A stretch of 64,000 bases of DNA from Halorarum salinum. GTDB taxonomy: Archaea; Halobacteriota; Halobacteria; Halobacteriales; Haloferacaceae. This document shows, in pieces, positions 29,999-53,860 of the stretch; the stretch's first letter is position 1; each line of letters begins with the position of its first letter. The notes under the pieces are model-generated. The model saw nothing but the letters and a program-made list of their open reading frames with translations, was not told the origin of the DNA and searched no databases. The position numbers were made by a program, and so were the translations under genes. The stretch covers positions 1,922,001-1,986,000 of the forward strand of contig NZ_CP058579.1 of NCBI RefSeq assembly GCF_013402875.1, in the 5' to 3' direction.

Positions 29999-32500
29999 CT
30001 AATTCCATCGAAGATCGTAGTGATTGCGGCAATTGCATCTCAATTCGCAGTATCCGTCGAACTCCTCGTACCGGATCGAGGAGCCACACTCATCGCAATA
30101 GAGGAGATCATAAGCTTTCTTGTGGGCTTCATAGACTTCCTCAAACTCGTCAAGACTGAGTGTCAACCATTTTCCTGGAGACCAGTGGACTCGTCGATTT
30201 ACCTTATTGAGCTGCTGACCGACGTCGTTTAGCACTTTGCCAAACTCACTATCAAGATCATCTACGCGTTCCCACATCTCTTCCTCATCATCGGCGTGAA
30301 GATTCAGGTTGTCCTTTGCTCGGCCTGTGAGGGTGTTCAGCCTCCCCGAAACTGCATCCCTGAAGTCACTAAGCCGATATGTCCCACTGGGGTCATACTC
30401 CACTTTCCCCCCTATTGACATACACGTCTGTTGTAACATTCGCTCCGTAGCATATCGGAGCTCGTGAGCCGCTCGTTCCATCTCGTCGTCAGCCATAGCT
30501 TCTTCGACCGTTTCCCACTGTTCGTAAACATCGATGTAACTTCGGCTCTCTTTCACCCCGTCGTCTATTGACCACTCGCGAAGGTGGACCTTTGATCCGC
30601 CGTAGAGTGCCCCCTGGGACCTCAGTTGTTCGGCCCAAAGCTCGTCGTGGGTAGTAATGATGATCTGATATTCATCTGCAAATTCCTCAGCAATCGTACG
30701 TGCAATCTGAAGCCTATGATCTTGATCAACGGACATGACGACATCATCGAGGAGAAGAAGCGATTTTTCGTCGTGTTGCAGATAATCAGTAAGCGCGAGA
30801 TGAAGACAGAGTCCCAAGGAATCGAGATGTCCCTCGCTAAACACGGAATGGGGAGGATATTCCCCGGCATCGTAGAATTCCTTCTTAAGATCAGCTCCTG
30901 TATCGGTCACTTCGATCGAAGCTTCCGTCCCATCTTCATCGGGGTGAATCGAGCAATAGTAGGACTCCACTCGATCCGTGATGTCCTCGTAGATCGCACC
31001 AATGACCTCACAGCGTGATTCGATGAAAGCCCTTTCAGCAGTCTCGACATCACTGAGGAGGGATCGAAGTCGGTCGACCTCCTCATCGAGTTCCTCGTAT
31101 TCCTGCCACCGCTTTGCGATTGTGTCGATCCGCTCATATTCCTCCTCGGCCTCACTGAGGTCGTCGAGCTCTTCCGTCCGGGACTGGAGTGAATTGGAGG
31201 CTCTGACAATCCGTTTATCTTCAATATCGATCTTCGGGGCCTCTGGTTCACAGATTGGCAACTCCAATCGATGGAAACTTCGATCGTGAATCAGACCTCC
31301 CCGGAGGGAATCCAATGATTCCTCAACTCTTCGTTCGAATTTCTCCAATTCCTCGACTTCCGGATATTCGTCTTCATCCAATTCCTTGACGAGGTACGTG
31401 AGGTGGTCCAGTCCCTCTTCAAGACGGTTGACAATATCCTGCTGAAGTTCGTCGAGGTGATTGAGTACGCTTTGGAATTCTCGGAGTTCCTCCCGCCGTC
31501 GACGAACGTCCTCATGCAATGGCATTTTCTCGTCCCAATCCTGCTGACAAAGCGGGCAAACGTCTGCGTCAGGAGGGATTACGTCCTCACCGAGTTCTAG
31601 CAGCTCAAGCCGTTTTGCGCTAACATCGGCCGATTCTCGTTCTCTGCATTCCTCAAGCAACGAGTTCACCCGTTCGAGTTCTGTTGGCAGCTCTTCCTCC
31701 AGTCGGTCGAGCCAAGCAACAAAATTCTGGAGTTCCACTTGGGGTCGCTCTCGACGGAGCGCCTGGGCAGAAAGTGTCTCAAGCGGGGATTCGACGTCAT
31801 CTCGGACGGATTCTGGATCGATTGTCTCAATCGGATCGCCGCCAAAGGATTCTCGTAGCCCGTTAATCTCCTCTAGAAGGGCCTTCCTCAGTTCGTGTTC
31901 TTCGTCCGTATTTGAATCTGCAAGCTCTTGGAGTCGCTCAAACGTGTTTTCTCGCTTGGCTTTTGCGTCTTCTAACTCACCTTCGAGGTTCCTACGGGTC
32001 CGTTGTAGTGATAGTCGCCTGTCATCGATGTCAGGCAGGTTTAACAACTCACTGAGAACTTGCCGTCGAGACTTCGGTTGCGTGATGATGAGGTCCAAGA
32101 GATCATCACGTGTAAGGATGTGCTGGCCTTGCTGGGCCGTTTCGATGATGTGGAGCAATGAATCTGGAAGGTCTTCTTGTGGCGGATCGAGGCGGGAATC
32201 GTCGACAGATCGCTGAACGTCTACACTATCGTCCGCACTCTCATCATTAAATGTGGCCGACACGACACAATCGCCATCTGCATTGACGTTCCGAATGATC
32301 TCATCTTTATTTACACTCCCCATTCCAGGTCGATCCAGCTGTCGAATATTGTTTGTGAGAAGATAGTTGATGGCCTCTAAGACCGAACTCTTCCCAGATC
32401 CGTTCGGCCCTACGATGATCGCATTTCCACAGTCGGGCTCGAAGGTGTATTCGTCCTTGATTCCCCGAAAATTCTGAATCTTGAGTGTCTGAAGTTCCAT
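29999..32500 (-). CDS. Rad50/SMC-like ATPase with zinc-hook CxxC and C-terminal zinc ribbon
   Basis: 833 residues. The N-terminal ABC half has QNFRGIKDEYTFEPD and Walker A VGPNGSGKSSVLEAIN (about residue 31). Long coiled coils (about 150-310 and 330-490) flank CPLCQQDW near residue 315, a Rad50-style zinc hook. The C-terminal half has the signature-like FSEGHLDSLGLCLHLAL and Walker B KSLLLLDDVVMSVDQDH. After the ATPase comes a helical part and a zinc ribbon (YCDECGSSIRYEEF, LRCNC). No Mre11 partner is nearby. Instead a 58-residue gene lies 3 bases upstream. This resembles SMC-type defence ATPases (Lamassu or ABC-three-component kinds) more than housekeeping Rad50; that is inference. Confidence 0.75.
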   Translation of the reverse strand: MELQTLKIQNFRGIKDEYTFEPDCGNAIIVGPNGSGKSSVLEAINYLLTNNIRQLDRPGMGSVNKDEIIRNVNADGDCVVSATFNDESADDSVDVQRSVDDSRLDPPQEDLPDSLLHIIETAQQGQHILTRDDLLDLIITQPKSRRQVLSELLNLPDIDDRRLSLQRTRRNLEGELEDAKAKRENTFERLQELADSNTDEEHELRKALLEEINGLRESFGGDPIETIDPESVRDDVESPLETLSAQALRRERPQVELQNFVAWLDRLEEELPTELERVNSLLEECRERESADVSAKRLELLELGEDVIPPDADVCPLCQQDWDEKMPLHEDVRRRREELREFQSVLNHLDELQQDIVNRLEEGLDHLTYLVKELDEDEYPEVEELEKFERRVEESLDSLRGGLIHDRSFHRLELPICEPEAPKIDIEDKRIVRASNSLQSRTEELDDLSEAEEEYERIDTIAKRWQEYEELDEEVDRLRSLLSDVETAERAFIESRCEVIGAIYEDITDRVESYYCSIHPDEDGTEASIEVTDTGADLKKEFYDAGEYPPHSVFSEGHLDSLGLCLHLALTDYLQHDEKSLLLLDDVVMSVDQDHRLQIARTIAEEFADEYQIIITTHDELWAEQLRSQGALYGGSKVHLREWSIDDGVKESRSYIDVYEQWETVEEAMADDEMERAAHELRYATERMLQQTCMSIGGKVEYDPSGTYRLSDFRDAVSGRLNTLTGRAKDNLNLHADDEEEMWERVDDLDSEFGKVLNDVGQQLNKVNRRVHWSPGKWLTLSLDEFEEVYEAHKKAYDLLYCDECGSSIRYEEFDGYCELRCNCRNHYDLRWN

Positions 32501-34527: not shown

Positions 34528-35095
34528 TCAAACTGGACGATCATGCTCGATATCCGCTTCGGAAAAGGTGACCTCGAACGTCCGCGCGCGGCGGGTAGTC
34601 AGGCGGTTGTACCCTATTCGGGTCGTTCCGATGTACTCGTTCAATTCAGAAACGACGTCGTCGGCTAGATCGAGTGTAACGGTCGCGACGTGCTCGTCTT
34701 CCAAGTGGTCCTTGAGTGTCACCGGATTCCAGGGCGAGACGAACGATCGCCGCGGGAGCGACCTCTCGATGAAGGGGTCGTTTCGTTGCGTCCTGTGAGT
34801 GTAACAGCCGCAACGACGTGTTCCTCGCCGTAGAAGGGATGCCGGTCGTTGGAGATGACGCCGTCCGGCCGTCGGCCACCGGCATCAAAGGTAGTTCGGG
34901 CTGTAACAACGGCCTCGAGCGGAAACTCCCTTCAACTGTCCTCGGTTTCTCTGAGACGTTCGAGGTCGTCTGTCCAGTCGGGGTTCCGACCGTACCTCTG
35001 GTCTTCGTACGCGGAAGTAACAGGCGTGAGATCGAATCTTGGCCAGTTCTCATACTTGTTACTTGATCCTGTATAGATGACCCTCTCTGGATCTT
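34528..35095 (-). pseudogene. Broken toxin-antitoxin module (MazF/PemK-like toxin, upstream antitoxin remnant)
   Basis: Reading leftwards, an antitoxin-like C-terminus (YENWPRFDLTPVTSAYEDQR to RLRETEDS) ends at the TGA at 34932-34934. Immediately after comes a MazF/PemK-like sequence: FPLEAVVTARTTFDAGGRRP, DGVISNDRHPFYGEEHVVAA, then, after a shift near 34785-34795, FIERSLPRRSFVSPWNPVTL and VATVTLDLADDVVSELNEYI. SND and SPW are typical of the toxin fold. The toxin has no start codon after the antitoxin stop, and the antitoxin loses its 5' end at the RecQ gene. So it is probably dead. Confidence 0.55.
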
Positions 35096-35121
35096 GGGAA
35101 ATACTTTTAGCGAGACAACCG

Positions 35122-37215
35122 ATGAGAGGGGGCGTGGACTCGGATTCGAAAAGTGGGATCAGGCGGCGGGGCCAGGAACTATTGGAACAGAGTCTCGGAC
35201 TAGACGCGGAGTTCCGGCCCGACCAATGGGAGGCGATCGAGCGCTTGGTCGTCGACAAGGAGCGGGTACTACTCGTCCAGCGAACCGGGTGGGGGAAGAG
35301 CACGGTGTACTTCATCGCGACAAAGCTACTCCGCGAGCAGGGCCACGGCCCGACGCTCATCATCAGCCCGCTGCTGGCGTTGATGCACAATCAGATCCAG
35401 GACGCGGAGAACCAGCTGGGTCTCGAAGCCTGGACGATCAACTCCAACAACACGGAAGATTGGACCGAAGCGAAGGAAGCTGTCGTCGACGGAACCTGCG
35501 ACGTTCTCCTGATCTCGCCGGAACGGTTGGCGAATATCGAATTTCACGAGGACGTCCTGATGGAAATGGACGACGAGTTCGGGATGCTCGTGGTGGACGA
35601 AGCTCACTGTATCTCCGACTGGGGCCACGATTTCCGTCCCGATTATCGTCGTATCAAGCGTATCCTCCAGGAATTCCCGGATCACATCCCGGTCGCGGCG
35701 ACGACTGCGACTGCGAACGACCGGGTGGTCGACGACGTCACCGACCAGGTTCCTCGACTCCGGGCGATTCGTGGCGACCTGGTCCGTGATTCCCTGCGCA
35801 TCCAGACGAATGAGATCGGCTCCCGAGCCAAACGTTTGGCCTGGCTCGCCGAGATCGTCCCGGAACTCCCGTCGTCGGGTATCGTTTACTGCCTGACGAC
35901 CGACGAGGTCGAGACAGTCGCCGAGTGGTTGAGCGATCAGGTGTTGGACTTCGAGCCCTACCACGGTGGGATGGACGGCGACCGTCGCCGTGAGTTGGAG
36001 GATCGACTGATGAACAACGAAGTCGACGGTCTGGCCGCGACGAATGCGCTGGGGATGGGGTTCAACAAACCGGACCTTGGGTGGGTCGTCCACTTCCAGC
36101 GACCGCCGAACCTCATCCGGTACTACCAGGAGATCGGCCGGGCTGGTCGGGGCCTCGAGGAGGCATTCGCAATCTTGCTCTCGGGGGACGAAGACGACCG
36201 GGTCGCGGAGTTCTTCATCGAACAGGCCTTCCCAGAGCCGGAGGATTTCGAGACCGTCCTCTCGACGTTGGAGGCCAGTAACGAACCGTTACACAAGTAC
36301 GAGATTCTGAAGCGGGCGAACATCTCCTGGAAGGCTGCCTCGCAGTGCCTGGACATGCTCAGGGTCGACAACGCCATCATCCGGGTCGACGACGGCTTCG
36401 AACGGACGTCGAAGGACTGGAGCTACGACCACGACCGGATCGAATCGGTGACCCGACACCGGTGGGAGGAACTCGATCGAATTCAGGAGTTCGCCAGAAC
36501 CGACGAGTGCCTGACAGCGTTCATCGACGACGAACTGGATGGTTCTCTCGAGGGCGACTGCGGCCGTTGTGCAAACTGTACTGAGCCGGTTATCCCGACC
36601 GACATCGAGGACGAGCGGCTGATCCAGGCGGCCGTTGAGCACTATCGAGCGGAGTCGTGGGACGAGATATCGCCACGGTACTACCTGCCGACGGAGAACG
36701 GTAAATCGAAGATCGAAAAGCACCGGAAGCACGAACCGGGTCGCGTCCTATCCGTGTACGGCGACCCCGGATACGGTGAGCTCGTGAGTCAATCCTGGGA
36801 ACAGGAGGACACGTACAGCCAGGAACTGGTCTCTGCAGCTGTACGGCAAATCGAGACCGAATGGAACCCCACTCCAGCGCCGACGTGGGTGACGGCGGTA
36901 CCGTCGCCAACCGACTGGCCGAAGGTTCGAGACCTCGCTCGACGAATCGCGGCCGGGCTTGGACTAGAGTACGTCCAGGCAGTTGAACGGGTCAAGGAAA
37001 TGCGACCACAGCATGAGTTGGCGAACTCCTACCAGAAACGATGGAACGTGGAGGATGCCTTCGACGTTACTGAGGATGTTCGATCGGCGCCGGTGTTGCT
37101 TATCGACGATACCGTCGGATCTCGGTGGACTTTCACAGAGGCAACATTCGAGCTACGGGACGCAGGAAGTGGGTCGGTCTATCCGTTCGCGTTAGCTGAG
37201 CGGACTATGTGGTGA
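35122..37215 (+). CDS. RecQ-type DNA helicase fused to a phosphoribosyltransferase-like domain
   Basis: About 697 residues from 35122 (MRGGVDSDSKSGIRRRG); the ATG at 35077 is an alternative. Helicase motifs: FRPDQWEAIERL, Walker A RTGWGKST (about residue 54), DEAHCISDWGHDFRPDY, TATTAT-like AATTATAN, TNALGMGFNKPDL and YYQEIGRAGRG. A zinc cluster (CLTAFIDDELDGS with CGRCANC) follows, as in RecQ. The C-terminal end holds VLLIDDTVGSRWTFTEAT, a PRPP-binding-type loop, so the tail is ComF-like. RecQ unwinds DNA 3' to 5'. The fusion partner may sense or bind a nucleotide. Upstream is the truncated toxin module; downstream the nuclease gene. Confidence 0.8.
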   Translation: MRGGVDSDSKSGIRRRGQELLEQSLGLDAEFRPDQWEAIERLVVDKERVLLVQRTGWGKSTVYFIATKLLREQGHGPTLIISPLLALMHNQIQDAENQLGLEAWTINSNNTEDWTEAKEAVVDGTCDVLLISPERLANIEFHEDVLMEMDDEFGMLVVDEAHCISDWGHDFRPDYRRIKRILQEFPDHIPVAATTATANDRVVDDVTDQVPRLRAIRGDLVRDSLRIQTNEIGSRAKRLAWLAEIVPELPSSGIVYCLTTDEVETVAEWLSDQVLDFEPYHGGMDGDRRRELEDRLMNNEVDGLAATNALGMGFNKPDLGWVVHFQRPPNLIRYYQEIGRAGRGLEEAFAILLSGDEDDRVAEFFIEQAFPEPEDFETVLSTLEASNEPLHKYEILKRANISWKAASQCLDMLRVDNAIIRVDDGFERTSKDWSYDHDRIESVTRHRWEELDRIQEFARTDECLTAFIDDELDGSLEGDCGRCANCTEPVIPTDIEDERLIQAAVEHYRAESWDEISPRYYLPTENGKSKIEKHRKHEPGRVLSVYGDPGYGELVSQSWEQEDTYSQELVSAAVRQIETEWNPTPAPTWVTAVPSPTDWPKVRDLARRIAAGLGLEYVQAVERVKEMRPQHELANSYQKRWNVEDAFDVTEDVRSAPVLLIDDTVGSRWTFTEATFELRDAGSGSVYPFALAERTMW

Positions 37216-38706: not shown

Positions 38707-39465
38707 TCACGAGCCCCCGAAGTCAGGGTGCAGTATCTCCGGGTATATGTCAAGCACTTCGTCCATCTTGGGTTTGGACTTTTCGGGGAGGGCAGGGTAC
38801 TGAACATCTTCGTTCCGCGGCCCCAGGTCGAGTTCCTTCGCCGTCAGTGCGAGTACAGCAGCATCGATAACGTCGTTCAACCGCCCCTTCGAGATCCGAT
38901 CGTGCCACTCAGCTCCGTTCTCTCGGTTGAGTACGATATCCGTGACTTCCTCGTGGAGATTTTGGTCCTCCTCCAGTACCTTGAGACGTTCCTCTCGACC
39001 ATCCGGTGTCTTCTTTCCAGGAAATTGGCTGGAGTCAAATCCTGCAAAGCAGATCTCTGGGTGACTCTCATACGTTTTCTCTTTGGCCCCCTCGAATTCC
39101 TGGAGAAAGACGTCTACTTCCAAGACTCGAGGGAAGAGCCACCAACTTTGGCTACCTAGCGAATCACCGTTTAATTCCCGAGCACGATTGTAGTCCTCAG
39201 CTTCGATTACGTTCCTTCCTGGAATGGAGAAAACTGTGCTCCTTCGAGAATTTAGTCGGTCCATCGCTTCGTTGTCACAGTCCCGTGTACCAGATACAGG
39301 AAGACCGATGGGAATATCCATAAGGATGGATCGGACGTCGTCATCACGGCCGTGATTGAGCCAAACGTTGAGGATCGATGGTTCGGTTGTAACGGCCGTC
39401 TCATCGCCTGTCTTGACGACCACCCAACAAGTACTTGCCCAATCCACGCCGAGGTACAAGGTCAT
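38707..39465 (-). CDS. DUF429 family protein, RNase H-like predicted nuclease
   Basis: 252 residues. Signatures of DUF429: N-terminal YLGVDWASTCWVV, DIPIGLPVSGTRDCD, the SRRSTVFSIPGR segment, YESHPEICFAGF and the C-terminal NDVIDAAVLAL. The acidic residues after GVD, in DIPIG, and in DVIDA are the expected RNase H-like metal ligands, all present. Substrate unknown. The frame is intact and divergent from the small SH3-like gene. Confidence 0.8.
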   Translation of the reverse strand: MTLYLGVDWASTCWVVVKTGDETAVTTEPSILNVWLNHGRDDDVRSILMDIPIGLPVSGTRDCDNEAMDRLNSRRSTVFSIPGRNVIEAEDYNRARELNGDSLGSQSWWLFPRVLEVDVFLQEFEGAKEKTYESHPEICFAGFDSSQFPGKKTPDGREERLKVLEEDQNLHEEVTDIVLNRENGAEWHDRISKGRLNDVIDAAVLALTAKELDLGPRNEDVQYPALPEKSKPKMDEVLDIYPEILHPDFGGS

Positions 39466-39804: not shown

Positions 39805-40449
39805 TCAGGAAATGTGATACGCAAACCGATCAAGAAAGGCTGGGTCGTAGGACTCGTCGACGTGGTTCACGTTGCAGAGCCTCGACTCCCTAATCTTTTG
39901 ACCAGGGCTGTCATTGCCGAGGCATTCCTTCGTCCGGGGGTCGATCGGGGGTTTCCCGTAGTTGCTAACGAACGCGATGGCGTTCCGCTTAAGGTACGCC
40001 CAGTTGCTCTCGGGCCCCGGCTCGTCGGGGAAGTCAATCCTGAGGAAGGGTAGTTGCTGACCCGGCGCTCCATTTCGAGTTCTTCGAGGTAAAGTTCGCG
40101 CCCGGCACTGCTGCCGTCGCCCTATATGGGTTATACATCGAGGAGGTTATGGCGCTCGATCAAAGCTTCCCCGGCGTGCTCCCGGAAGACTAAGCCCCTC
40201 TTGATTGCCTCCTCCCTCGTACGTACCGGTGAGATTGCCCCGGAGGTTCCGAAGGCGATTCCAAAGTGACGTACCGCTCCCCTCGGAGATGGCGTGGATG
40301 CCGACGCGGGTGAGACGTAATTGATCGGTATCCTGACGCTCTTGGTCGGTCCTGAAGAAGGAGTAGACTACCCGGTCTGGCCAATCCGTGTAGCCGTCGC
40401 GCTCACCCAGTGTCTGTTTCCCACCAACCTTGGTCTCCAACTGGCTCAT
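39805..40449 (-). pseudogene. GIY-YIG nuclease-family gene, decayed
   Basis: Pieces in order: SQLETKVGGKQTLGERDGYT and RLTRVGIHAISEGSGTSLWN (40449 to about 40200), REHAGEALIERHN in a shifted frame followed by two stops, LYLEELEMERRVSNY, then in a further frame FPDEPGPESNWAYLKRNAIA, NYGKPPIDP and NVNHVDESYDPAFLDRF to 39805. This matches the layout of haloarchaeal GIY-YIG proteins (THAISEGS, RNAIALLSNYG, WNVNHVDE). At least two frameshifts and two stop codons break it, so it is a true pseudogene. Confidence 0.7.
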
Positions 40450-40534
40450 AAAGCCATCAAATTGACCTAGGTCTTTTTGGTGAGTCGTCTAACGAGACCG
40501 TGGTATTGGTAGAGTCCAAGGATCTTTCTATTCG

Positions 40535-41737
40535 CTACAACGTTAAACTCTCGGCCGGGCATCCATTTTCTAAGATGTATCGACAGTTGCCGGAAAGTCC
40601 CTTGGTCAACGGATTTCTCGAGCCAACAAAACTATCGAACAAATTTGACGTCACCCACTCAGTATCCCCACCCTCATCTTCTCCGTGGAACGTGACCCCC
40701 TCTGGCACCCGAAGCCGTTCGTACTCACGCCCCCTCTGAACCCTTTCCTGAAGCGACCGAGTCAGCTGCCACCTGTACGAGTCACGCTGCTGGTGACTCT
40801 GTGTCCTTGCAAGCGCGTTGAGCGTAAACCGCCGCTCGATGTAATCCCGGAAATCCGGATCGAACGCCCCTAAAAATGCATCCATGCTATCAAACTCGTC
40901 TGGAAGTTCCGGATACTCTCCAGGGTAAGCACGTGGATCCAACTCGATCGTGTCGAAGAACGCTTCATCCCGGACGCCACGGATAGGAAGCCCATAGTCG
41001 CAGCGTTTGATGTGCTCCTTGAGGTCGTCCCAGAAATAGACGAGCGGATGATGGCTCGTGGATCGATCGCCGAATTGGCAGTAGGGGTACGTGTCGAGGC
41101 CCGTCATGGCCCACTTTTGAGTACGGTACTTCCCGATTACATGGGACCGATCCAAAGCTACCGGGCAGTACTCAACGTAAATCCAGGAGAGCTCTTGACG
41201 ATGTCGCAACGCCTGAAGAAACACGGCGTACGCATCAACGAACACAGACCTCGCTAGCCCCTCTCTGATGTGATCTTGTTGGGGAACGGCCGGTAGTGCC
41301 AAGAATGCCTCCCCAGGGCTATACTGGAGGACGAGGTTGTACACCTGCGTCATGTTCACACGATAACAGAGCCATTGGATCGCGGAGTCATCTGGACCGA
41401 GAACGCGGGTCTTGACGGGGGCCTTGTGTTGAAAGACGACCTCTTTGGCCGTGTCGAGCTTGATGTCATATCCCTTCCCGAGCGGTGACTTCGTGTACTG
41501 TGTTCCGCCTTCTTCGACTCGGGTGGGTGCGAGGGCAATCCGTCGCTTGAATCCGTCAGCTAAGGCCGAAAGCTGCTCGTGCGTGATGTTGACCTCCAGG
41601 GTATTCTCGTTCGGGAGCGTCCCGAGGTCGGCGAAAACGTCGTCAGGATAAACTCGAAAAACGAAGTCTCCAATTGTGAAATCCAAATAACCTGACGGGC
41701 CTCCTCTGAATTGGTAGGTCATATAACCTATCTTCAC
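40535..41737 (-). CDS. Unknown 400-aa protein coupled to Ski2-like helicase-nuclease
   Basis: 400 residues with no family I recognise. The start overlaps the helicase stop by 4 bases (41734-41737), so it is translationally coupled and probably part of the same system. The N-terminus is beta-rich (LDFTIGDFVFRVYPDD, TLEVNITHEQLSALADGFKR). At residues about 95-110 LDTAKEVVFQHKAPVKTRV gives an Asp...Gln-x-Lys pattern that could be a QxK-type variant of the PD-(D/E)XK nuclease core. The middle is helical with Cys (YCPVALDRSHVIGKY) and the C-terminus acidic/aromatic. Nuclease character is inference. Confidence 0.6.
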   Translation of the reverse strand: MKIGYMTYQFRGGPSGYLDFTIGDFVFRVYPDDVFADLGTLPNENTLEVNITHEQLSALADGFKRRIALAPTRVEEGGTQYTKSPLGKGYDIKLDTAKEVVFQHKAPVKTRVLGPDDSAIQWLCYRVNMTQVYNLVLQYSPGEAFLALPAVPQQDHIREGLARSVFVDAYAVFLQALRHRQELSWIYVEYCPVALDRSHVIGKYRTQKWAMTGLDTYPYCQFGDRSTSHHPLVYFWDDLKEHIKRCDYGLPIRGVRDEAFFDTIELDPRAYPGEYPELPDEFDSMDAFLGAFDPDFRDYIERRFTLNALARTQSHQQRDSYRWQLTRSLQERVQRGREYERLRVPEGVTFHGEDEGGDTEWVTSNLFDSFVGSRNPLTKGLSGNCRYILENGCPAESLTL

Positions 41738-44541
41738 CGCTCGCCCAAGATGCGTTTGACCTCACGTCGGGTGAGGTGACCGGTGCTCGTGAACAACTCG
41801 GCGAACGTCTCTGGTTGAATGGTCGAACGTTCGGCGTGTATCATCAACGTAGTAAATGCAGCCACCGGAAGCAGAAGGACTCCTTGACGCCTCGCCTCAT
41901 CGTGCGCCCCCGAGGCGAACTGTGGCGTCCCAATGGTCAGTTGGAATGGTTGGGTGTCGGCCTTCCGGACCACGTCGGTCGCGTTATCGACGCTAATCTC
42001 TCCTTCCTCAAGGTCCTCCTTCGACTTGCATTCGACGGCAATCACGAGGGGGGTCCCATCAACCTCGTACGGCGTACTCTGATCGTCATTCAGGATTGTA
42101 AGTTCGCCCTCGGGGTATCGATCTTGCCCCTGTTCGTCGAAGCTCCGGTATTGCAGTCCATTGCAGTTCCCCAGACGCTCCTCACAGTGGTTTTCGAACA
42201 CCGTCTGCGTCGTCTCGAAAAGGGATCGAATTGCCCCAGTATCGGCCCCCTCACTTCGGGCATCAAGTAGCGTGTTTCGGCGGGAGAGCTCGGGTTCCTC
42301 GCAGAACTCATTGATTGCCCGACGAGTATATTTGAACGCCTGCTGACCGGGCATCTCGCCGAATAATCGGAACATGGGTCCAGTCGCAATCTCGCTTGGA
42401 TGCTCGATATCGAGCCCGTCACGCATGTGATCGATCCACCGCCGCTCCGTCGCGATGTGGTGTCTGGCAAATGCCGCCCCACCAGCGTCCAGCCCGTAGC
42501 GCACCTGGTATTCCAGCTGTTCGAGCTGGTCGTTGAATACGGCCACGAGCGGGTCTTCTGCCTCTTCCAGGATCTCCGTGAGCGTCTTAATCCCGCGGGC
42601 GAACATCGGCGCGGCCCGTTCGCTTACGTCGCTGGGCGTCCGACTACTCGTGATTCGCCGTCGAGTGAAGCTCACCCCGAGCTCCTCTCCCCTGAGCCAA
42701 TCGGCAATGACCTGGGCCGTAACCAGCGCGTTCGCGAGCGTCTCGTCGGAGAGATCATCTGAATCGGGAAGGGGTAGTCGGTCGCGAATCGGTTCGAGAT
42801 CAATTCCCCTCTCACCACCACGGCGGTATAGCCGGCACTGATCGAGGAGCGGTGACGCACCGAGTACTGTGAGGAAGTCGATTACGTCGAACTTGTCCAG
42901 CGATTTAACGTCCCGGAGGTAGCGGACGGCCGCGTGCACCGTCGCCGGGGCGATGAGCTGCTTTGAGGTCGCGTACCCGAGGTCGGTTAGGTCGAACCGG
43001 CCCGATGATTGGCCGGAATCCACCATGCCCTGAGCGATCAGCTCCTCAACCGTGGCTTCGATCCCCTGGATCGTCTCCGATTCAGGAAGGTCGGTGGTCG
43101 CACCGTGGAACGTGTCTGAAAGGAACTCGTAGATTCGATCCGGGCCTTCGTACTCCCGAATCAGATCGAGCACGAGTTCCGGGTCGATAGGGTTGATCGC
43201 CGAGGTGACGGGTTCGATGTCGCCGGTGAGAAAGTTGTCGTAGAGGTCCTGCTGTTGGAGCGCGTTCTCCGCATACAGTACTGCCTCCCCGGGGTCATCG
43301 CCGTACTGTGGCCGCCCCGATCGGCCGACGAGGTTCTTGTATTCACCGGTCGTCATCGGCCGGCCGTATTCGCCGGAGCCGCCGAGCCGCGGCTTGGTGA
43401 TGAAGACGCGATCGATCGGGAGGTTAATTCCGGCCCCGAGGGTAGTCGTCGACACGACGACTCGTAAGCTGCCGTCTTCAAGTCCGCCGACGACACATCG
43501 TTTCACGGTATCGTTCAGACCAGCGTGATGGAACCCAACGCCGTGAGGGATGCACGCTTCGAGCGCTTCCTGCACCTCGCCACGTCGATCTGCGGCGTCC
43601 GAGATCCGCTCCTCGAGATCACGGGTGACGACCCTGTCGACTTCGACCGGACCACTTCTGGGGTGGTCGCGTAGGAAGGAGGCGATTGCTTCCGCGTACC
43701 GTTTTGCATCCCGTCGGATCGGGGCAAAGATCAGCGCTTGTCGCCCGGGGTCGCCACTTAGGAACTCCAGCGCTGGGTTGACATGGGGGACCTGCTCGAC
43801 GTACCTCGAAACTGACTCTGTGATTGGTTCGTCTTCCCGATAGAGATTGAGCTCATCGCTTCCAACGACGTGGGTGCCTTCCCAGAGAGAGCACTTTCGC
43901 CAAGTTCCGGAGTCGCTCCACTCGGCCGCCAACCACTTGGCCACCTGTTCACAGTTGGGCGCCGTCGCACTGAGCCCCACGACGCGAATCTCCGGGTACT
44001 CAGTTCGGAGCTTGGTTGCCACGACCTCGAGGTTAGGCCCGCGCCGCTCGTTACTGAGTGTGTGAAATTCGTCGATGACGACTAGGCCGATTTCGTTAAT
44101 GTAGCCCCCATGATTTCGGAGGTGATAGTCGAATTTCTCGTAAGTCATCACAAGAATGTCGGCTGCGAACAGCTCGACTGGTTCCATTCGATCCCCACCC
44201 AGCGAGGTCTCCACGGATAGGTCGAATGTATCGCCGATCGTCTCCCGGAACGTCTGAGTTTTCTCCTCGGCAAGTGATCGATAGGGGATGAGGTACACAC
44301 TTATTTCCCGTTCGACGGCCGTCGCATTATCGACGATGGCGAACTCGGCGGCAAGGGTCTTGCCAGTTCCTGCTTCCGCGACCATGAGAAAGCTCTCGGC
44401 GTTGAGAAGGCCTGCATTGAGTGCGTCGAACTGGGTTCGCCAGAGGGAATCGATATCCCGATCGTTTCGTAAATGGTCGACATACGTACTGACGAGCCCG
44501 TACTTACTAGTGAGCAACTCGATTTCCGAACTCGTACTCAT
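41734..44541 (-). CDS. Ski2-like DEAD/H helicase with C-terminal nuclease-like domain
   Basis: 935 residues. Helicase core: Walker A AEAGTGKTLAAEF (about residue 54), VIDEFHTLSN (DEFH box, about 154), VVGLSATAPN, a second RecA domain with AGINLPIDRVFI and YKNLVGRSGRPQYGD. Winged helix and helical-ring-like regions follow, as in Ski2/Hel308. Near residue 840, PLVIAVECKSKEDLEEGEIS has a Glu-x-Lys after a preceding acidic strand (a PD-(D/E)XK pattern). Ski2-type helicases unwind RNA or DNA. This one is coupled by 4 bases to an unknown 400-aa gene, and divergent from a DUF4268 gene. Antiviral function is inferred from this context (compare Hachiman HamB). Confidence 0.75.
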   Translation of the reverse strand: MSTSSEIELLTSKYGLVSTYVDHLRNDRDIDSLWRTQFDALNAGLLNAESFLMVAEAGTGKTLAAEFAIVDNATAVEREISVYLIPYRSLAEEKTQTFRETIGDTFDLSVETSLGGDRMEPVELFAADILVMTYEKFDYHLRNHGGYINEIGLVVIDEFHTLSNERRGPNLEVVATKLRTEYPEIRVVGLSATAPNCEQVAKWLAAEWSDSGTWRKCSLWEGTHVVGSDELNLYREDEPITESVSRYVEQVPHVNPALEFLSGDPGRQALIFAPIRRDAKRYAEAIASFLRDHPRSGPVEVDRVVTRDLEERISDAADRRGEVQEALEACIPHGVGFHHAGLNDTVKRCVVGGLEDGSLRVVVSTTTLGAGINLPIDRVFITKPRLGGSGEYGRPMTTGEYKNLVGRSGRPQYGDDPGEAVLYAENALQQQDLYDNFLTGDIEPVTSAINPIDPELVLDLIREYEGPDRIYEFLSDTFHGATTDLPESETIQGIEATVEELIAQGMVDSGQSSGRFDLTDLGYATSKQLIAPATVHAAVRYLRDVKSLDKFDVIDFLTVLGASPLLDQCRLYRRGGERGIDLEPIRDRLPLPDSDDLSDETLANALVTAQVIADWLRGEELGVSFTRRRITSSRTPSDVSERAAPMFARGIKTLTEILEEAEDPLVAVFNDQLEQLEYQVRYGLDAGGAAFARHHIATERRWIDHMRDGLDIEHPSEIATGPMFRLFGEMPGQQAFKYTRRAINEFCEEPELSRRNTLLDARSEGADTGAIRSLFETTQTVFENHCEERLGNCNGLQYRSFDEQGQDRYPEGELTILNDDQSTPYEVDGTPLVIAVECKSKEDLEEGEISVDNATDVVRKADTQPFQLTIGTPQFASGAHDEARRQGVLLLPVAAFTTLMIHAERSTIQPETFAELFTSTGHLTRREVKRILGER

Positions 44542-44698
44542 TCTGTCTCGATGTCTAACTCGGTGTAAATATAAGTTTCTCCTGAGTGAAACATGGCATG
44601 TTTAAATCTATGAATATTGATTGGATAAAAGTGGTTTTGGGCGTTTAACTCATTTCGCTCCTGGAAGGCTTTTGTAACTGCGTTGAGCAGAGGAGCGT

Positions 44699-45661
44699 AT
44701 GAGACAGGGTTCGCCAGCAGATTTCCACGAGCTTGAACCACAGGACGTCCGCGAATATTGGTCCCACGAGGCCCACGATTTCACACCGTGGTTGGCGGAC
44801 TCGATTGGGTCTGAAGAGGTATCGCATCTGGAGGACGTTCTCGGACTAGATTTAGAAGTGACCGAGACGGAGAAGAGCGTTGGAAAGTACAACGTCGATA
44901 TCGTTGCCGAGGTCGTCGACGATGGCCGGCAGGTCGTAATCGAGAGCCAACTGAGTTCTTCGGATCACGACCACCTCGGGAAGTCCATTGCCTACGCGGC
45001 TGGGGTTGATGCAGATATCATCGTCTGGATCTCACCCACGTTCAATGACGAACATCGAGACGCTATCCAGTGGCTGAATAAGAATAGCCGCGAGGGTGTC
45101 GATTTATTCGCAATTCGACTCGAAGTATGGCGAATCGGCGAATCTCCCCCAGCAGTCCGGTTCAATCCAGTCGAGGATCCCAGCGAGTGGAAGGAGAAAG
45201 CCAAGCGCTCGAAGGGAGAGCTGACCGAGACGAAGAAACTTCAAGAGGAGTACTGGACGCAGTTCCGAGATCTAATCGAGGGCCAGGAGACGCTATTACG
45301 GGGGCGGAAACCGAAGCCGCAGCACTGGTACAACAATCCGATTGGGAAATCGGGCTATAAACTTCAGTTTACGGTTAACACGGTGGAGAACAAGCTGTAC
45401 GCCCAACTCATCATAAACGACGACCCAGAAGCGTATCAGTCTCTGGAGCAACAGAAAGACCAGATAGAGGAGGAGATGGGCGAATCGCTCCTCTGGAGAC
45501 CTCCCGAAGAGGCCCAAGGAGAGAGCAACCGGAGTAAAATCACACTTCGCCGGGACGGATTCCTGTCCGACAAGGAGGAATGGGAGGAGTATCACGAATG
45601 GATGTTAGACCGGGGTGAACAGTTCCACGAGGTGTTCGCGGGACGGATTCAGCAATCCTGA
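44699..45661 (+). CDS. DUF4268 protein with endonuclease-like N-terminus
   Basis: 320 residues. N-terminal restriction-like fold: GKYNVDIVAEVVDDGRQVVIESQLSSSDHDHLGKSIAYAAG, in which the Asp, the Glu and the Gln (E-x-Q in place of E-x-K) mark a PD-(D/E)XK variant. C-terminal DUF4268 region: YWTQFRDLIEGQETLLRGR, WYNNPIGKSGYKLQFTVN and KITLRRDGFLSDKEEWEEYH. DUF4268 proteins occur near restriction and defence genes. It lies divergent from the Ski2-like operon and may belong to it. The intact start is at 44699 after an AT-rich promoter stretch. Confidence 0.7.
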   Translation: MRQGSPADFHELEPQDVREYWSHEAHDFTPWLADSIGSEEVSHLEDVLGLDLEVTETEKSVGKYNVDIVAEVVDDGRQVVIESQLSSSDHDHLGKSIAYAAGVDADIIVWISPTFNDEHRDAIQWLNKNSREGVDLFAIRLEVWRIGESPPAVRFNPVEDPSEWKEKAKRSKGELTETKKLQEEYWTQFRDLIEGQETLLRGRKPKPQHWYNNPIGKSGYKLQFTVNTVENKLYAQLIINDDPEAYQSLEQQKDQIEEEMGESLLWRPPEEAQGESNRSKITLRRDGFLSDKEEWEEYHEWMLDRGEQFHEVFAGRIQQS

Positions 45662-46924: not shown

Positions 46925-47121
46925 TCTATGATCCTCTATGTCACGTCTCTCATCTCACCGAATAATAAACTGCGGTAACTGGCTTTCTTGGTCGCCGGTC
47001 TTTGCTGGATGTACAAACTGCCAAAAATCGCAGCTGTCGAGAGGTGACGTAGGTTCATATACGAAAACGAGGGGAATTACCCTCGGATGATTCACCGACA
47101 GCCCGCGACTGTTTGCCAAGA

Positions 47122-47129
47122 GTATATAT
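47122..47129 (+). promoter_or_regulatory. TATA box of the methyltransferase-helicase operon
   Basis: GTATATAT lies 32-39 bases before the ATG at 47161 and 14-21 before another at 47143. Transcription should begin near 47150, which argues against the in-frame TTG at 47113 and for 47161. Confidence 0.5.
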
Positions 47130-47160
47130 GGTGCTAGAGAGAATGGCCGTCAAGCGAAAT

Positions 47161-50100
47161 ATGTCTGTCAGAACTCCCATCGAAGGTCTCGCCTCAATCG
47201 AAAACGGAGGCGACGTTATCGACTATCTACTCAATTCAGAAGGATTAAACTACAGTACCTTTGTCGAGGTCCCGAGCGGAATAAAGCGTAACCAAGGGAG
47301 GAACGATTGGTACGAGGCACACTTAGTCGATGAGAATGGTGACGGCATCATTCGATACATCGAGCTCGAAGCATCTGGGGATAGCCCCACATTTAGCGAT
47401 CTGAAGCGACACCTGAAACGCCACGGAAGCCCAGTTAACGAACTTTTCACTGTCATCGCATACAGGAAATCCGATGAGGGGCCACTGACCAGTCCCCTGA
47501 ACGACGACCTAACGTTCCTTTACATTGAGGAGCAGTTTTCTTCAGAAGACGTCGAGGTGACCTTCGATCTCAACTACTTCACGGTCAAGCGGTTTGGCGT
47601 CGAACCAGCGTACCTCGACTATCTTGACGACCTCTCCGTGGACTCTGGACAAGGTCGAACGAGTCTCGAAGGGGACGTTGAGGATGTCTTCTCCATCCGA
47701 GAGGTCACGCGTAACTTCTACCAAGATTTCGGGGAAATCTTCCGTGAGGATCTTCAAGATGCGATTCACGGCTTGAAGGAACCGGAGGAGAACCTCAATG
47801 CATATACGCGAACGGTCGTCAATCGCGTCCTGTTCTTGCTGTTCATTGAGGAGAAGGGGTGGCTTGACGGCGATGTGGACTACGTCGAGAACAAGTACGA
47901 AGAAGTGGCCAAAGAGGACGATCTGCACGTTTACGACGACTTATTCGAGCCACTGTTCTTCGAAGCGCTCTCAGAGGAGGGGACAACGGAATCGGACCGC
48001 CTCGGTCAGATCCCCTTCCTCAACGGCGGTCTGTTTGAGCGCAAGGACATCGAAGAGGACGTTGAAATTGACGAGGAATTCTTCGACAAGCTCCTCAGTC
48101 CGGAGGATGGCGACGATGGCGAACCGGAAGGGTTCCTCCGGCGATACAAGATCTCGCTTCGTGAGTCGAATCCCAGCGAACAGGAACTCGTCGTCGACCC
48201 GGAGTTCATCGGGCGTATCTTCGAGATGTTCATGCAGGAGGACGAACGTTCAGAGGTGGGCGCGTTCTACACCCCGAAACCTATCACCGCCTACATGACG
48301 AAGAACGCGCTCAAGCAGCATCTGCTGGGGCAAACCGACATCTCCCACGAAGAGGCTGTGTCACTGGTTAGTGACCACACCGCCCCCGACTCGCTCACTG
48401 AGGACCAGATCGAGGACGTCAATAACGCTCTTCGATCTGCGACTGTACTGGATCCGGCAGTGGGCAGTGGCGCGTTCATCATCGCCATGCTGGAGGAGCT
48501 TGTCGCCGTCTCGGAAGCACTTGACGATAGTACTGGCGACGGCCGAAGCCGGTTCCAGCTGAAAGAAGAGTTCATCGCGGACACGCTCTACGGTGTCGAC
48601 ATCGACGCTGGCGGTATCGAACTGTGTAAGTTCCGTGTCTGGCTCCACCTAATGCAGGATCTCGACGTAGACCACGACGAGTTCCTTGATTCTAACGAAG
48701 AATTCGCACTGCCCAATCTCGGATTCAAGTTCTTTGTCGGAAACAGCCTTGTCGGAGAGCATGACCCAACAAACGTCGACGCTCAGCAAGCCACTCTAAC
48801 GGGGGGGCTCGACAGCACACTCGAAGAGATTCACGAGGTTAGGACCCAATACCAGACCGCACACGGTGATGAAAAGGATCGACTTGCCGAGCGTCTTGAG
48901 GAACTTACTGACGAACTGGACACTCAGTTGGCCGTTGAGAAGAGTAGCTGGATGACTGAGGTTGTTGAAGAAACGGACGAAACCTTCGCGTGGACACTTA
49001 ACATTCCAGAGGTCATTCTGGACGGGGGGTTCGATATTGTAATTGGTAATCCACCGTACGAAGGGCAATCTCAACAGGATTATATCGGAGAACTCGCCCG
49101 CTTCTACGACAAGAAGTACGACTTCTACAAGACCATCCCACGGATGCGACACGATTTGTATCAGAAATTCAATATTAGGGGTTGGGAACTGACACGGAAA
49201 GGCGGTGTACTGTCCTATATTACGAGCAATACGTTTTACACCATCGGGTCTAAGCAGACGACGCGGCAACTGCTCCAGCGGAACCAATTACTCGATTTAC
49301 TAAGAGCGAATTCTGACACATTCGAAGCAACGGTCGAACCTGCAATCTTTGCACTGCAAAAGCGGGATCCAGATCCAGCACACAAATTCAATTATATCGA
49401 TGCATCAGAGACAGAGATTCAGGAGTATCGCTCGTTCGTTCGGGAATTAGACACTTCCGAGTCCGACGCTGAACGGGTCGCACCGCTTGACCTCCACGAT
49501 TCATCCCGCGGGTATCGCGTCCAACTTCAGGTCTACAAAGACACGCTGCGGAGTGCGTTTTTCGAGCCGACCGAGACGAACATGAGGCTCCACGACCAAT
49601 TTATGTCCCGGATCAAGAGCCTCGCCGAGGAGTGGGAGTCTGAGTTACAGGACGTAACGACATTGAAGCATAACGCAGAGAAGATAACGCAAAACCACAC
49701 CTCACAATTAGATACAGGCGATGTGTCTATCCTCGGATTGCTAACTCTCGGAGGACAGGGGATGACGACCGATAAGAATGCGAAGTATATGGCATTTTTA
49801 GAAGGAACCGAAGAGGCCGAAGAGTTAGCCGACCGAAACCCCGACTTCAAGCTGAACGAGCGCAACGAAAATGAGTATAAATACCTTGACAAGGTTATCA
49901 CCAAAGATCGAGTCGCGGATCCCAGTAATCTCACTTCTGAGGAACAATTAAACGGAATTGATAGCTCAAAGACAGCCACCTGGGTTCCGATCGAAAAGGG
50001 GTTCCGTCAATCAGATCTTTACTATAAGCCTCAGGTCGAATATATCAACTGGTCAAAGGATTCATTACAGGAAATTCAGAGTCACCGGAACGGGATCTTA

Positions 50101-50505
50101 AAGAATATCGACTATTACTTTGAACCCGGAGTGTTCCTCTCTATCGGCGGATTCGCTAATCTTAAAGCCAGATATACGAATAACCGAGCTATCGACCATA
50201 CTGGTAATATATTCGCCCCAACTATCCTACAAAAGCTGTCCGTGAAGTACCTCATCGGAATCCTCAATTCAGAAGTACCCATCCATATCACCGAGAACTT
50301 CATTAATTCAACTGGACTTGAGACCGCCGACCTCCGTTTGATTCCCATTCCGATTCCGACCGAGGAACAACGGGAAAGTGTCGAGATGCTGGTCGATAGA
50401 GCGATTGAATCTCAGCGAGGGAATCGGTCGGAGTCTCTTGAATCGATTCAGGTAGAGGTTGAAGAGATCGTAGAGCAGATCTATCAGGTGGACTTGGATG
50501 AGTGA
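47161..50505 (+). CDS. Eco57I-like/N6-adenine methyltransferase, type II-like restriction-modification
   Basis: 1114 residues from the ATG at 47161 (MSVRTPIEGLASIENGGDVI). N-terminal portion resembles helical regions of large restriction enzymes (YYIEEQF-type, NRVLFLLFIEEKGWL). Then FYTPKPITAYMTKNAL, motif I VLDPAVGSGAFIIAMLEEL (about residue 428), DTLYGVDIDAGGIELCKFRVWL, and the catalytic motif FDIVIGNPPYEGQ (NPPY, about residue 630) of adenine-N6 methylases. The C-terminus (KYLIGILNSEVPIHITENF) is a target-recognition-like region. It methylates host DNA. The next gene overlaps by 8 bases and should be the cleaving partner. Confidence 0.85.
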   Translation: MSVRTPIEGLASIENGGDVIDYLLNSEGLNYSTFVEVPSGIKRNQGRNDWYEAHLVDENGDGIIRYIELEASGDSPTFSDLKRHLKRHGSPVNELFTVIAYRKSDEGPLTSPLNDDLTFLYIEEQFSSEDVEVTFDLNYFTVKRFGVEPAYLDYLDDLSVDSGQGRTSLEGDVEDVFSIREVTRNFYQDFGEIFREDLQDAIHGLKEPEENLNAYTRTVVNRVLFLLFIEEKGWLDGDVDYVENKYEEVAKEDDLHVYDDLFEPLFFEALSEEGTTESDRLGQIPFLNGGLFERKDIEEDVEIDEEFFDKLLSPEDGDDGEPEGFLRRYKISLRESNPSEQELVVDPEFIGRIFEMFMQEDERSEVGAFYTPKPITAYMTKNALKQHLLGQTDISHEEAVSLVSDHTAPDSLTEDQIEDVNNALRSATVLDPAVGSGAFIIAMLEELVAVSEALDDSTGDGRSRFQLKEEFIADTLYGVDIDAGGIELCKFRVWLHLMQDLDVDHDEFLDSNEEFALPNLGFKFFVGNSLVGEHDPTNVDAQQATLTGGLDSTLEEIHEVRTQYQTAHGDEKDRLAERLEELTDELDTQLAVEKSSWMTEVVEETDETFAWTLNIPEVILDGGFDIVIGNPPYEGQSQQDYIGELARFYDKKYDFYKTIPRMRHDLYQKFNIRGWELTRKGGVLSYITSNTFYTIGSKQTTRQLLQRNQLLDLLRANSDTFEATVEPAIFALQKRDPDPAHKFNYIDASETEIQEYRSFVRELDTSESDAERVAPLDLHDSSRGYRVQLQVYKDTLRSAFFEPTETNMRLHDQFMSRIKSLAEEWESELQDVTTLKHNAEKITQNHTSQLDTGDVSILGLLTLGGQGMTTDKNAKYMAFLEGTEEAEELADRNPDFKLNERNENEYKYLDKVITKDRVADPSNLTSEEQLNGIDSSKTATWVPIEKGFRQSDLYYKPQVEYINWSKDSLQEIQSHRNGILKNIDYYFEPGVFLSIGGFANLKARYTNNRAIDHTGNIFAPTILQKLSVKYLIGILNSEVPIHITENFINSTGLETADLRLIPIPIPTEEQRESVEMLVDRAIESQRGNRSESLESIQVEVEEIVEQIYQVDLDE

Positions 50506-53500
50506 CCCAGACTGGAGCGACTACTCCGACGTCCTCGACAACCGCGAATATGACGTCGCCGAGCGAGCGAACGCTCTTGCGCCTGAAGCCGAGACTGTCC
50601 GCATCGCCGTCGGTTACTTCTATCTTGGTGGTTTCGACCTCCTGAAGGAGAATCTCCGAAGGGCCGAACGCATTGAGATCCTCATCGGAACCGATACCGA
50701 TCAGCGTACCATCGATGAACTGGAACGTGGGTTCGCTGACGACCTAGATGAATACGACCGCTCTGAAGCCCAAGAGGGGATCAATCGGCTTTACGAGCTC
50801 ATTCAGGAGGACAAGGTGGATGTGCGTGTGTACGACGACAGTCGGTTCCATCCGAAGCTCTATCTCTTCGAACATCCGGCGGGTTCCCCGGACCTCGGCC
50901 GGGCGATTATCGGCTCCTCGAACCTCTCCGCCAGCGGTCTCCGTGGGAACGTCGAACTGAACGTCGAAAAGAAGGACAACAACACGATCCGGTATCTCGG
51001 CGAGTGGTTCGAGGATATCTGGGCGGAGGCCAGCGAATTCGATAAGGACCTTATGTCTGCCGAGATAGAGAAGTCGCAGTTCGGAGACGACCTCCCAGAC
51101 ACCTCCACGGGAAAAGGTGAAACATCGGTCGCCGAGGTGGAAACGATTTCACCGTACGAAGCGACGAAACGGTTTATTGTCGAGCAGTTTTCCCGAGACG
51201 TCCGAGAGGGCACCCTACTTCAGGACATCTCTGGCGATTACGAAGAACAACTCACAGCGTTCCAGCAGGACGCGTTCAGGGCAGCTCGTCGTCCGCTCGA
51301 AAAATACAACGGCGTCGTACTAGCGGACAGCGTCGGTCTGGGCAAGTCATACATCGGTGCCCCTCTCGTACAGGACTACACGAGTTCCCGAGATGATGTT
51401 CTCGTCATCGCTCCCAAACGGTTGGAGCGGATGTGGATGCGGGACCTCCTTGATGCGGACACCGGCGAGTTCCCGACAACTGCTGAGAAGACGTTTATGA
51501 GTTTCAATAAACTCTCCCGTCTATCTGAAAAGGAGATCCAACGGCTCCGTGGAGTTGATCTGATTCTCGTCGACGAGGCTCACAACCTCCGAAATACTGG
51601 AACACAGCGCTACGATAAACTCCAGTCAATCGGTCGGATGGGCAAGAAGTTCGTGATGCTGACTGCAACGCCGATCCACAACTCCGTCAGAGACGTGGAC
51701 AATTTGATCAAGGTGTTTGCCGACGACGATGACTTCGACATCGAGCTTCAGGGCTTGTCACCGAGCGAGATTTTTAAACAGTATGACCGCCTCTCCAGCG
51801 AGGAAGACAAATCCGCGAGCACTCAGAGTCGGCTTTCGGACTTGGAAGAACTCATTGAGTCAATTATGCGGGAGGTCATCATTTCGAGGGACCGGAAGTA
51901 CATCCTCGAAAATTACGAGGAGATCACCATCGGAGACCGGGCCATTAGCGTCCCTGATCGAAAGCCGCGTCTTGTCACACCCGATGACCCTCGTCTCGAC
52001 GAACTCTATAGTGACATCGTCGATACAGTCATCGGCTCAGATGACTCCGAGAACTCTGGATTGAACATCCCCTACGTTAGTGCTGATCGGTATGACGCTG
52101 ACGGAGACGAAGAAGAGGAACTAATCATTGAGTACCAGAACGCGAGCATTCTGATGCTCATTAATCTCCTCAAACGTCTTGAGAGCAGCCTTGCCGCGTT
52201 CGAGAGTTCTGTTGAACGGCTTATGGAACGAGAGCGCATCACACGTCACATCGCTACTGGTGACCTGGATGATGCGCAAAACCGGAGTGACGCCGTCGAA
52301 CAGATACGAGATACATTCGAGGACGATTTCGCCAAAGATGTTGACTTCGAGGACGTCGCAGAAGCCCTCAATAGAGTCAGTCCATCGAAGAGGGATGAAA
52401 TCGTAGCAGACATTGATGAAGACCTTCGAGAACTGGATCGAATAAAACGGCAAGCACAGAATGCACTTCAGACCAAAGAAGATGGACGCACTAAAGACGC
52501 TAAGGCGGAACGTCTGCGTGGGTTAATTGACCGAGAGCTATCGGACGAGAAGGTTCTCATATTCAGCCAGTACGTACCCACGATTACGCACCTCTTTGAG
52601 CAACTAACTGGGGAGAATCCTGCACACACGAACGTTGCTACACTTGGTCAAGATCCGAGTAATCCTACCGTCGGATTTGTCCACGGGGGAAGTGGGTACG
52701 ATGAGAGAATTGTTGAGCGATTTGCTCCAGAAGCTCAAGAGGCCGATGTGACCCTCGGCGAAGAGATTGACATCCTGTTTGCGACCGACGTATTAGGAGT
52801 CGGACAGAATCTCCAAGATGCACGAGTCCTCGTGAACTACGATCTCCACTGGAACCCGATGAAGATGGAGCAGAGAATTGGGCGTCTTGACCGCATCACC
52901 ACGCGGCATGATGAACTGTGGATCTACAACTTTGCTCCGACAGGTGACCTACGGAAGCAGCTCGGGCTCGTCGAGGGGATTCAAGAGAAAATCGAAGATA
53001 TCGCCAACACGTTCGGTCATGCCGCTCCCATCCTGGATACTGCTGAAGAGCAAGTACACAAAACGCTCATCACCTACGAGCGACTGGAAGAAGGCGGTGC
53101 AGAGTTTGGGGACGAACGGTTGGAGGGTATTGGGTCGAAGTACGACGATCTCAGAAATGTCGTTCGATCGTTCTGTGAGGAGAATGATGTCGATATCGAG
53201 GAGCTTCTGGAAACCTACGATGCCGTCGCAGACAGGTCGGAACCACAGTATTTCGTCTCTCCTGGCGAAGAAGGATACGTCTCACTCGCCCACTTAGAAC
53301 ATAGTAGTGGACGCACTGAATGGCGGACCACCATCTTCGATTCGGATCGAGTACAAAGCACCACAATCGGAGGGCAAACGGTCTTCACCCAATTCCCACG
53401 GTTAGAGACTGATGAAGTTCGAGTGTTCGAAACCATCTCCTCCCCCGATACCACTCGCCACGCGATTCCTGAGGACGATTTTGATGAGTTGAAGTCTTTC

Positions 53501-53860
53501 GTGAGTGAGTTGGGCACGCCGAGTACGTGGCAAAACGACATTCTTAGTCGGCAGAGTGGAGATAGTGACGTTGTTACCGACATTAAACAACTATGTCGAC
53601 AGATTGCGGACAGCGACGTGGATGTGAGCGGAGAAGCAGAAAAGATTGTTGGCCTGCTGGGTGATCACGAGATGAGCGACTGGGCAGAGGGCCAGTTGCG
53701 CACAATACATCGGAGACGTCGTAGATATGGGGCTAACGGTACGATTCGAAGGATACACCACAAACTCACAGAGGGGATTGAGTTAGTCGATCCGGAGACC
53801 GTTATGGAAGCAGAAGTTGCGATTGCAGGGCAATTGGACGATAGCACACCGGAGAAATAA
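50498..53860 (+). CDS. PLD nuclease-SNF2 helicase, restriction partner
   Basis: 1120 residues. The N-terminal phospholipase-D-like domain has the HxK motif RFHPKLYLFEHP (about residue 116) and IIGSSNLSASGLRGNVELNV. Then an SNF2-type helicase: Walker A LADSVGLGKSYIG (about 276), LILVDEAHNLRN (DEAH, about 358), MLTATPIHNSVRD, and motifs V-VI LFATDVLGVGQNLQDARVLV and MKMEQRIGRLDR (about 760-790). It starts 8 bases inside the methyltransferase, so both form one restriction-modification cassette. DISARM has related parts (PLD, SNF2-type DrmD, methylase), but here PLD and helicase are fused and no DrmA/DrmB follows. Confidence 0.82.
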   Translation: MSDPDWSDYSDVLDNREYDVAERANALAPEAETVRIAVGYFYLGGFDLLKENLRRAERIEILIGTDTDQRTIDELERGFADDLDEYDRSEAQEGINRLYELIQEDKVDVRVYDDSRFHPKLYLFEHPAGSPDLGRAIIGSSNLSASGLRGNVELNVEKKDNNTIRYLGEWFEDIWAEASEFDKDLMSAEIEKSQFGDDLPDTSTGKGETSVAEVETISPYEATKRFIVEQFSRDVREGTLLQDISGDYEEQLTAFQQDAFRAARRPLEKYNGVVLADSVGLGKSYIGAPLVQDYTSSRDDVLVIAPKRLERMWMRDLLDADTGEFPTTAEKTFMSFNKLSRLSEKEIQRLRGVDLILVDEAHNLRNTGTQRYDKLQSIGRMGKKFVMLTATPIHNSVRDVDNLIKVFADDDDFDIELQGLSPSEIFKQYDRLSSEEDKSASTQSRLSDLEELIESIMREVIISRDRKYILENYEEITIGDRAISVPDRKPRLVTPDDPRLDELYSDIVDTVIGSDDSENSGLNIPYVSADRYDADGDEEEELIIEYQNASILMLINLLKRLESSLAAFESSVERLMERERITRHIATGDLDDAQNRSDAVEQIRDTFEDDFAKDVDFEDVAEALNRVSPSKRDEIVADIDEDLRELDRIKRQAQNALQTKEDGRTKDAKAERLRGLIDRELSDEKVLIFSQYVPTITHLFEQLTGENPAHTNVATLGQDPSNPTVGFVHGGSGYDERIVERFAPEAQEADVTLGEEIDILFATDVLGVGQNLQDARVLVNYDLHWNPMKMEQRIGRLDRITTRHDELWIYNFAPTGDLRKQLGLVEGIQEKIEDIANTFGHAAPILDTAEEQVHKTLITYERLEEGGAEFGDERLEGIGSKYDDLRNVVRSFCEENDVDIEELLETYDAVADRSEPQYFVSPGEEGYVSLAHLEHSSGRTEWRTTIFDSDRVQSTTIGGQTVFTQFPRLETDEVRVFETISSPDTTRHAIPEDDFDELKSFVSELGTPSTWQNDILSRQSGDSDVVTDIKQLCRQIADSDVDVSGEAEKIVGLLGDHEMSDWAEGQLRTIHRRRRRYGANGTIRRIHHKLTEGIELVDPETVMEAEVAIAGQLDDSTPEK

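Follow-up and report, generated by a model that had tools for sequence, protein, structure and literature searches.

A predicted Hel308-type helicase-nuclease overlaps the gene of a nuclease-like protein in a haloarchaeal defence island

Archaeal immunity is poorly charted (PMC12988326). Among described systems, Hachiman (HamAB) combines a Ski2-like helicase and a nuclease in a two-gene unit; its helicase, HamB, and the repair helicase Hel308 have been proposed to be evolutionarily related, and the HamA-binding N-terminal region of HamB (NAH) has been reported for all HamBs and as absent from other Ski2-type relatives (PMC12278908). A helicase joined to an Mrr-like nuclease also occurs as a defence part in ZorD of Zorya and similar fusions (PADLOC description). 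Here we analysed a 64,000-nucleotide (nt) stretch of Halorarum salinum NZ_CP058579.1 (the window, whose coordinates are used throughout), in which the gene for a helicase of 935 amino acids (aa; 41734-44541, minus strand) shares the four bases GTGA (41734-41737) with the stop/start of a gene for a 400-aa protein (40535-41737, minus strand), as the initial annotation had stated. We lean towards the reading that a helicase-nuclease and a nuclease, each mobile independently of the other, have come together in the defence island described here, where they are probably co-transcribed. The sequences themselves show the architecture, the conserved putative catalytic signatures, the adjacency of the two genes and the fact that each family also occurs separately, while the DNA polarity, the nuclease chemistry and the presumed anti-virus or anti-plasmid role are taken from the families concerned.

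In the literature searched, which did not include the archaeal Ski2 survey PMC10946056, we found neither a Hel308-nuclease fusion nor the family of the 400-aa protein (named here QxK) described, and both families look undescribed. A Hel308-type helicase with its own nuclease in a defence island would directly exemplify the apparent recruitment of Hel308 itself for defence, in archaea, and both the fused helicase and the QxK family are amenable to testing in Haloferax volcanii.

The helicase and its C-terminal domain

The helicase contains a RecA1/RecA2 motor core at residues about 28-430 (43252-44460, minus strand; Pfam DEAD 9e-28, Helicase_C 4e-5), with AEAGTGKT (K61), DEFH (D157) and GRSGRP (406) each in its expected position. 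The region at residues about 431-735 (42337-43251, minus strand) corresponds to the winged helix and ratchet of Hel308, as judged from profile matches and from the alignment to the Hel308-type model PRK02362. This was the top NCBIfam model (286.6 bits, residues 22-617), although the score falls far below its equivalog cut-off of 887 bits, and the top-matching solved structures were also those of Hel308. In agreement with this, a profile of the C-terminal half (A5) matched archaeal Hel308-sized proteins across the winged-helix/ratchet part (profile positions about 12-240), and with a profile of the whole family (A10) nearly all of the 243 haloarchaeal genomes searched yielded matches to proteins of Hel308 size, many of which extended to position 734. 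The PADLOC HamB models matched the helicase as well (best 128 bits, HamB1), with the matched stretches lying within the motor core. The motor core is a Ski2-type superfamily 2 core and is the part shared with HamB; outside it the protein resembles Hel308 and not HamB. A maximum-likelihood tree (midpoint root, three groups sampled) placed the fused helicases in one clade (99/99), apart from both the haloarchaeal Hel308s and the HamBs and nearer to Hel308 than to HamB by path length.

The remaining residues, 736-935 (41737-42336, minus strand), set the protein apart from Hel308 by an additional domain of about 200 aa. The domain had no match in Pfam, but it aligned with haloarchaeal proteins of the restriction endonuclease family Mrr_cat (PF04471) by hhalign (85%, E 6e-6), and the C-terminal-half profile also reached, across the nuclease part and with lower scores, two haloarchaeal proteins of 450 aa, both of which are Mrr_cat proteins (6e-10). 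We aligned seven fused helicases, taken from haloarchaea and from two Halobacteriota genomes outside them; the homologues share 31-54% identity with the window protein. E811 (42109-42111, minus strand) was invariant in all seven, as were E837, C838, K839 and S840 of ECKSK (residues 837-841; 42019-42033, minus strand), so the nuclease-like Glu-x-Lys segment pointed out by the initial annotation exceeds chance. The domain is accordingly read as a predicted Mrr-like PD-(D/E)XK nuclease. E811 may be the first acid of the active site, which would place a PE-type acid 26 residues ahead of the ExK motif, a feature that, together with the helicase fusion, distinguishes the domain from Mrr_cat enzymes. 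Taken together, the protein is predicted to comprise a Hel308-type motor, winged helix and ratchet followed by a nuclease, unlike ZorD, which is a SWI2/SNF2 helicase of a multi-gene system.

Full-length fused helicases were found in four of the 391 haloarchaeal genomes, including that of the window, on one further plasmid and in two non-halobacterial Halobacteriota genomes (G494 and G445). Of the six other than the window protein, two are plasmid-encoded, in Halorarius halobius (54% identity) and in Natronosalvus amylolyticus (43%), and four come from genomes G036, G011, G494 and G445; in addition, a Salarchaeum plasmid record ends in a C-terminal fragment of a fused helicase. Since relatives carry the fused helicase alone, it appears to be a complete, self-contained module. 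These data also bear on whether it serves host DNA repair instead of defence, as might be supposed from the role of its Hel308 relatives as repair helicases and from its position amid housekeeping genes in G494 and G445. We regard this as unlikely, given that the fused helicase is rare, patchy and partly plasmid-borne, adjoins defence genes in the window, and exists in addition to Hel308-sized relatives.

The 400-residue protein and its family

The 400-aa protein had no match at E<=1 in Pfam, NCBIfam or PADLOC, in line with its initial description as outside any recognised family, and its family had no convincing match in PHROGs or the Protein Data Bank (PDB). For neither nuclease part, the helicase C-terminus or the 400-aa protein, was there a direct Pfam or PDB match worth reporting. 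A profile search recovered homologues of about 240-400 aa in 16 of the 391 haloarchaeal genomes, again including that of the window, and a scan of genome contigs yielded one relative only, in a metagenome-assembled genome already known from the genome search. In the 16-member alignment, with a mean column identity of 24%, only eight columns were invariant: E76, G89, D91, Q103, K105, Q131, P149 and W236. Five of these fall in a putative catalytic signature, E76 ... G89-Y90-D91 ... F102-Q103-H104-K105 (41423-41512, minus strand), which includes the Asp...Gln-x-Lys pattern noticed initially. In Mrr-type enzymes QxK replaces ExK, and the E ... D ... QxK arrangement reads as the Gln variant of the PD-(D/E)XK pattern. 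Because the invariant E76, D91, Q103 and K105 give an active-site pattern of this type, the 400-aa protein is probably itself a nuclease, and what had been put down as a subunit of unknown type would be nuclease-like in its own right.

An alternative is that the protein is not a nuclease and owes its conserved positions to a different fold or to a role in binding. Its lack of profile similarity to any library family and of a usable structure model would be compatible with this, but it is precisely the E, D, Q and K positions that stay invariant across 16 very divergent sequences, and the substitution of Gln for Glu has its counterpart in the Mrr-type enzymes. We therefore consider a non-nuclease role improbable.

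Members of the QxK family adjoin genes for OLD-type ATPases, DUF262, HEPN, E2/ThiF and 7-deazaguanine proteins or type I restriction genes. This nuclease-like family, apparently not yet catalogued, is patchily distributed over plasmids and defence islands of haloarchaea. In Salinigranum marinum the QxK gene (L013 7805-8803; L105) is carried by a plasmid and lies between E2/ThiF genes and a 7-deazaguanine cluster (queC-folE-queE-queD plus a TGT-like gene). At another locus the QxK gene is followed after 80 nt by the gene of a 1593-aa protein (L056 7113-11894) whose N-terminus is ATPase-like, and the same genome seems to contain, elsewhere, a broken copy of a comparable arrangement (L057).

The two genes as a unit

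Several observations suggest that the helicase and 400-aa genes form a probable two-gene transcript. A TATA-box-like CTTATATTTA (44566-44575, minus strand) lies about 29 nt 5' of the helicase ATG, the spacing expected for a leaderless haloarchaeal transcript, and is the candidate sole promoter of the operon. The 400-aa protein could start at the GTG in the overlap, at an ATG at codon 6 or at a TTG at codon 18; its homologues begin near its residue 30-36, so any of the three may be the true start. Whichever start is used, the gene begins no more than about 47 nt from the helicase stop, and there is no space for an intergenic promoter.

To evaluate the relation to Hachiman, we used genuine haloarchaeal Hachiman loci as a local yardstick (HamA in 7 of 145 genomes sampled; HamB of 838-868 aa; HamA followed by HamB, L114-L117). 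A Hachiman or AbpAB variant could be suspected from the two-gene layout of helicase plus nuclease and from the HamB matches to the motor core. However, HamA (DUF1837, PF08878) had no hidden Markov model match in the 400-aa protein and none in the whole window genome (G000), and hhalign of the 400-aa profile against haloarchaeal HamA gave a probability of 0.5%. Only residues 44-417 of the helicase aligned to HamB, at HamB 156-529. The Walker A motif of the helicase occupies residues 55-62, whereas that of haloarchaeal HamB is found at about 165-186; about 54 residues precede the motif in place of about 160-180, so NAH is missing. The gene order, helicase first, is also the reverse of that at the Hachiman loci, and in the window pair a nuclease is predicted to be fused to the helicase and the second nuclease to come from another family. 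We therefore rejected membership in Hachiman or AbpAB, a reading that these data already contradict and that is now hardly tenable; the initial annotation had likewise seen no described Hachiman pair here.

The pairing itself was not seen again. None of the six other fused-helicase loci had the 400-aa gene beside the helicase (at G011 the downstream side alone is visible because the helicase gene starts at the contig's first base), and no fused helicase was found near any other QxK gene at the loci examined. With four fused-helicase genomes and 16 QxK genomes among 391, 0.16 genomes with both families are expected by chance and one was observed; since this is the window itself, no association between the families can be claimed. 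Co-occurrence of two or three of the genes as a conserved defence system, which the initial annotation had made the test of its three-gene proposal, was not encountered in the other genomes examined, and that proposal is largely undone by its own standard. As each gene occurs alone in other archaea, the pairing may be a local combination.

In the related genomes G494 and G445 the fused helicase is followed after 22 nt by another small gene of 183 aa (L097 5436-5987; L098 8611-9021, cut short in G445). Its product has no Pfam match; it contains RHIQIH, which fits the Rx4H pattern known from HEPN RNases, and may be a HEPN-type protein. This raises the possibility of an obligate two-component system, in which the helicase-nuclease would sense its target and activate the 400-aa nuclease as an effector in trans, the slot behind the helicase being exchangeable, with the logic of Hachiman built from unrelated parts. 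The GTGA overlap, the shared strand and the absence of a separate promoter are in keeping with this, and recruitment of extra nucleases by Hachiman has been reported (PMC12799240). On the other hand, the pair is known from this window only, four of the seven fused helicases lack a convincing follower gene close by, and every other QxK member examined lacks such a helicase nearby, so we hold the obligate system to be possible but not probable. More doubtful still is its extension to a defence system of a new kind: a Hel308-Mrr fusion would sense abnormal DNA and control an exchangeable downstream effector gene, Hachiman-like logic again arising from Hel308 and unrelated nucleases; the effector would be the QxK nuclease here, possibly the Rx4H protein in the two non-halobacterial archaea, and none elsewhere.

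The favoured reading is that of two independently mobile modules. The first gene would encode a Hel308-type 3'-5' DNA helicase joined to an Mrr-like nuclease. The fusion protein may load, as Hel308 does, on forks or single-stranded 3' ends, whether the DNA is invading or being replicated, and may then unwind the DNA and cleave in cis. The second gene would encode a nuclease in its own right, of PD-(D/E)XK type (E-D-QxK), which elsewhere stands alone on plasmids and among defence genes; here it would be a mobile add-on, brought into translational contact with the helicase and contributing a second cutting activity. Some findings weigh against this reading. AlphaFold models were unusable both for the helicase nuclease region (predicted local distance difference test, pLDDT, 33.7) and for the 400-aa protein (pLDDT 37.6, from a 2-sequence alignment), and the fold assignment of QxK is consequently based on motif conservation alone, its profile matching neither HamA nor Mrr by hhalign. 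The antiviral role, moreover, is deduced from the neighbouring genes, and the contexts in G036 and G011 are not clearly defence islands.

Neighbouring genes

PADLOC matches around the locus comprised PsyrT-like, PDC-S11, PDC-S26-like, IIG-like methyltransferase, PLD/SNF2 helicase and LmuB-like proteins. The LmuB-like ATPase is encoded at 29999-32500, the PsyrT-like RecQ helicase at 35077-37215 (812 bits), and the IIG-like methyltransferase followed by the PLD/SNF2 helicase at 47113-53860. Several homologues reside on plasmids, and no carriage by viruses was detected in IMG/VR pattern scans or INPHARED phages.

The divergent DUF4268 gene that the initial annotation had placed alongside is present at 44699-45661 (320 aa), but its proposed part in the combination did not hold up: it matches PDC-S11, an already listed single-gene defence candidate, at 366 bits, and no homologue of it was found at the other fused-helicase loci. 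We rejected it as a third component, and it stands outside the helicase/400-aa unit.

Directly downstream of the 400-aa gene lies a degraded gene (39820-40479, minus strand) with 41% identity over 224 aa to an intact 236-aa HamA-adjacent protein of another genome (G120; L111 2363-3073). A DUF429 gene is located near the locus at 38707-39465, and DUF429 relatives were also observed near the QxK genes of two other loci (L014 and L015).

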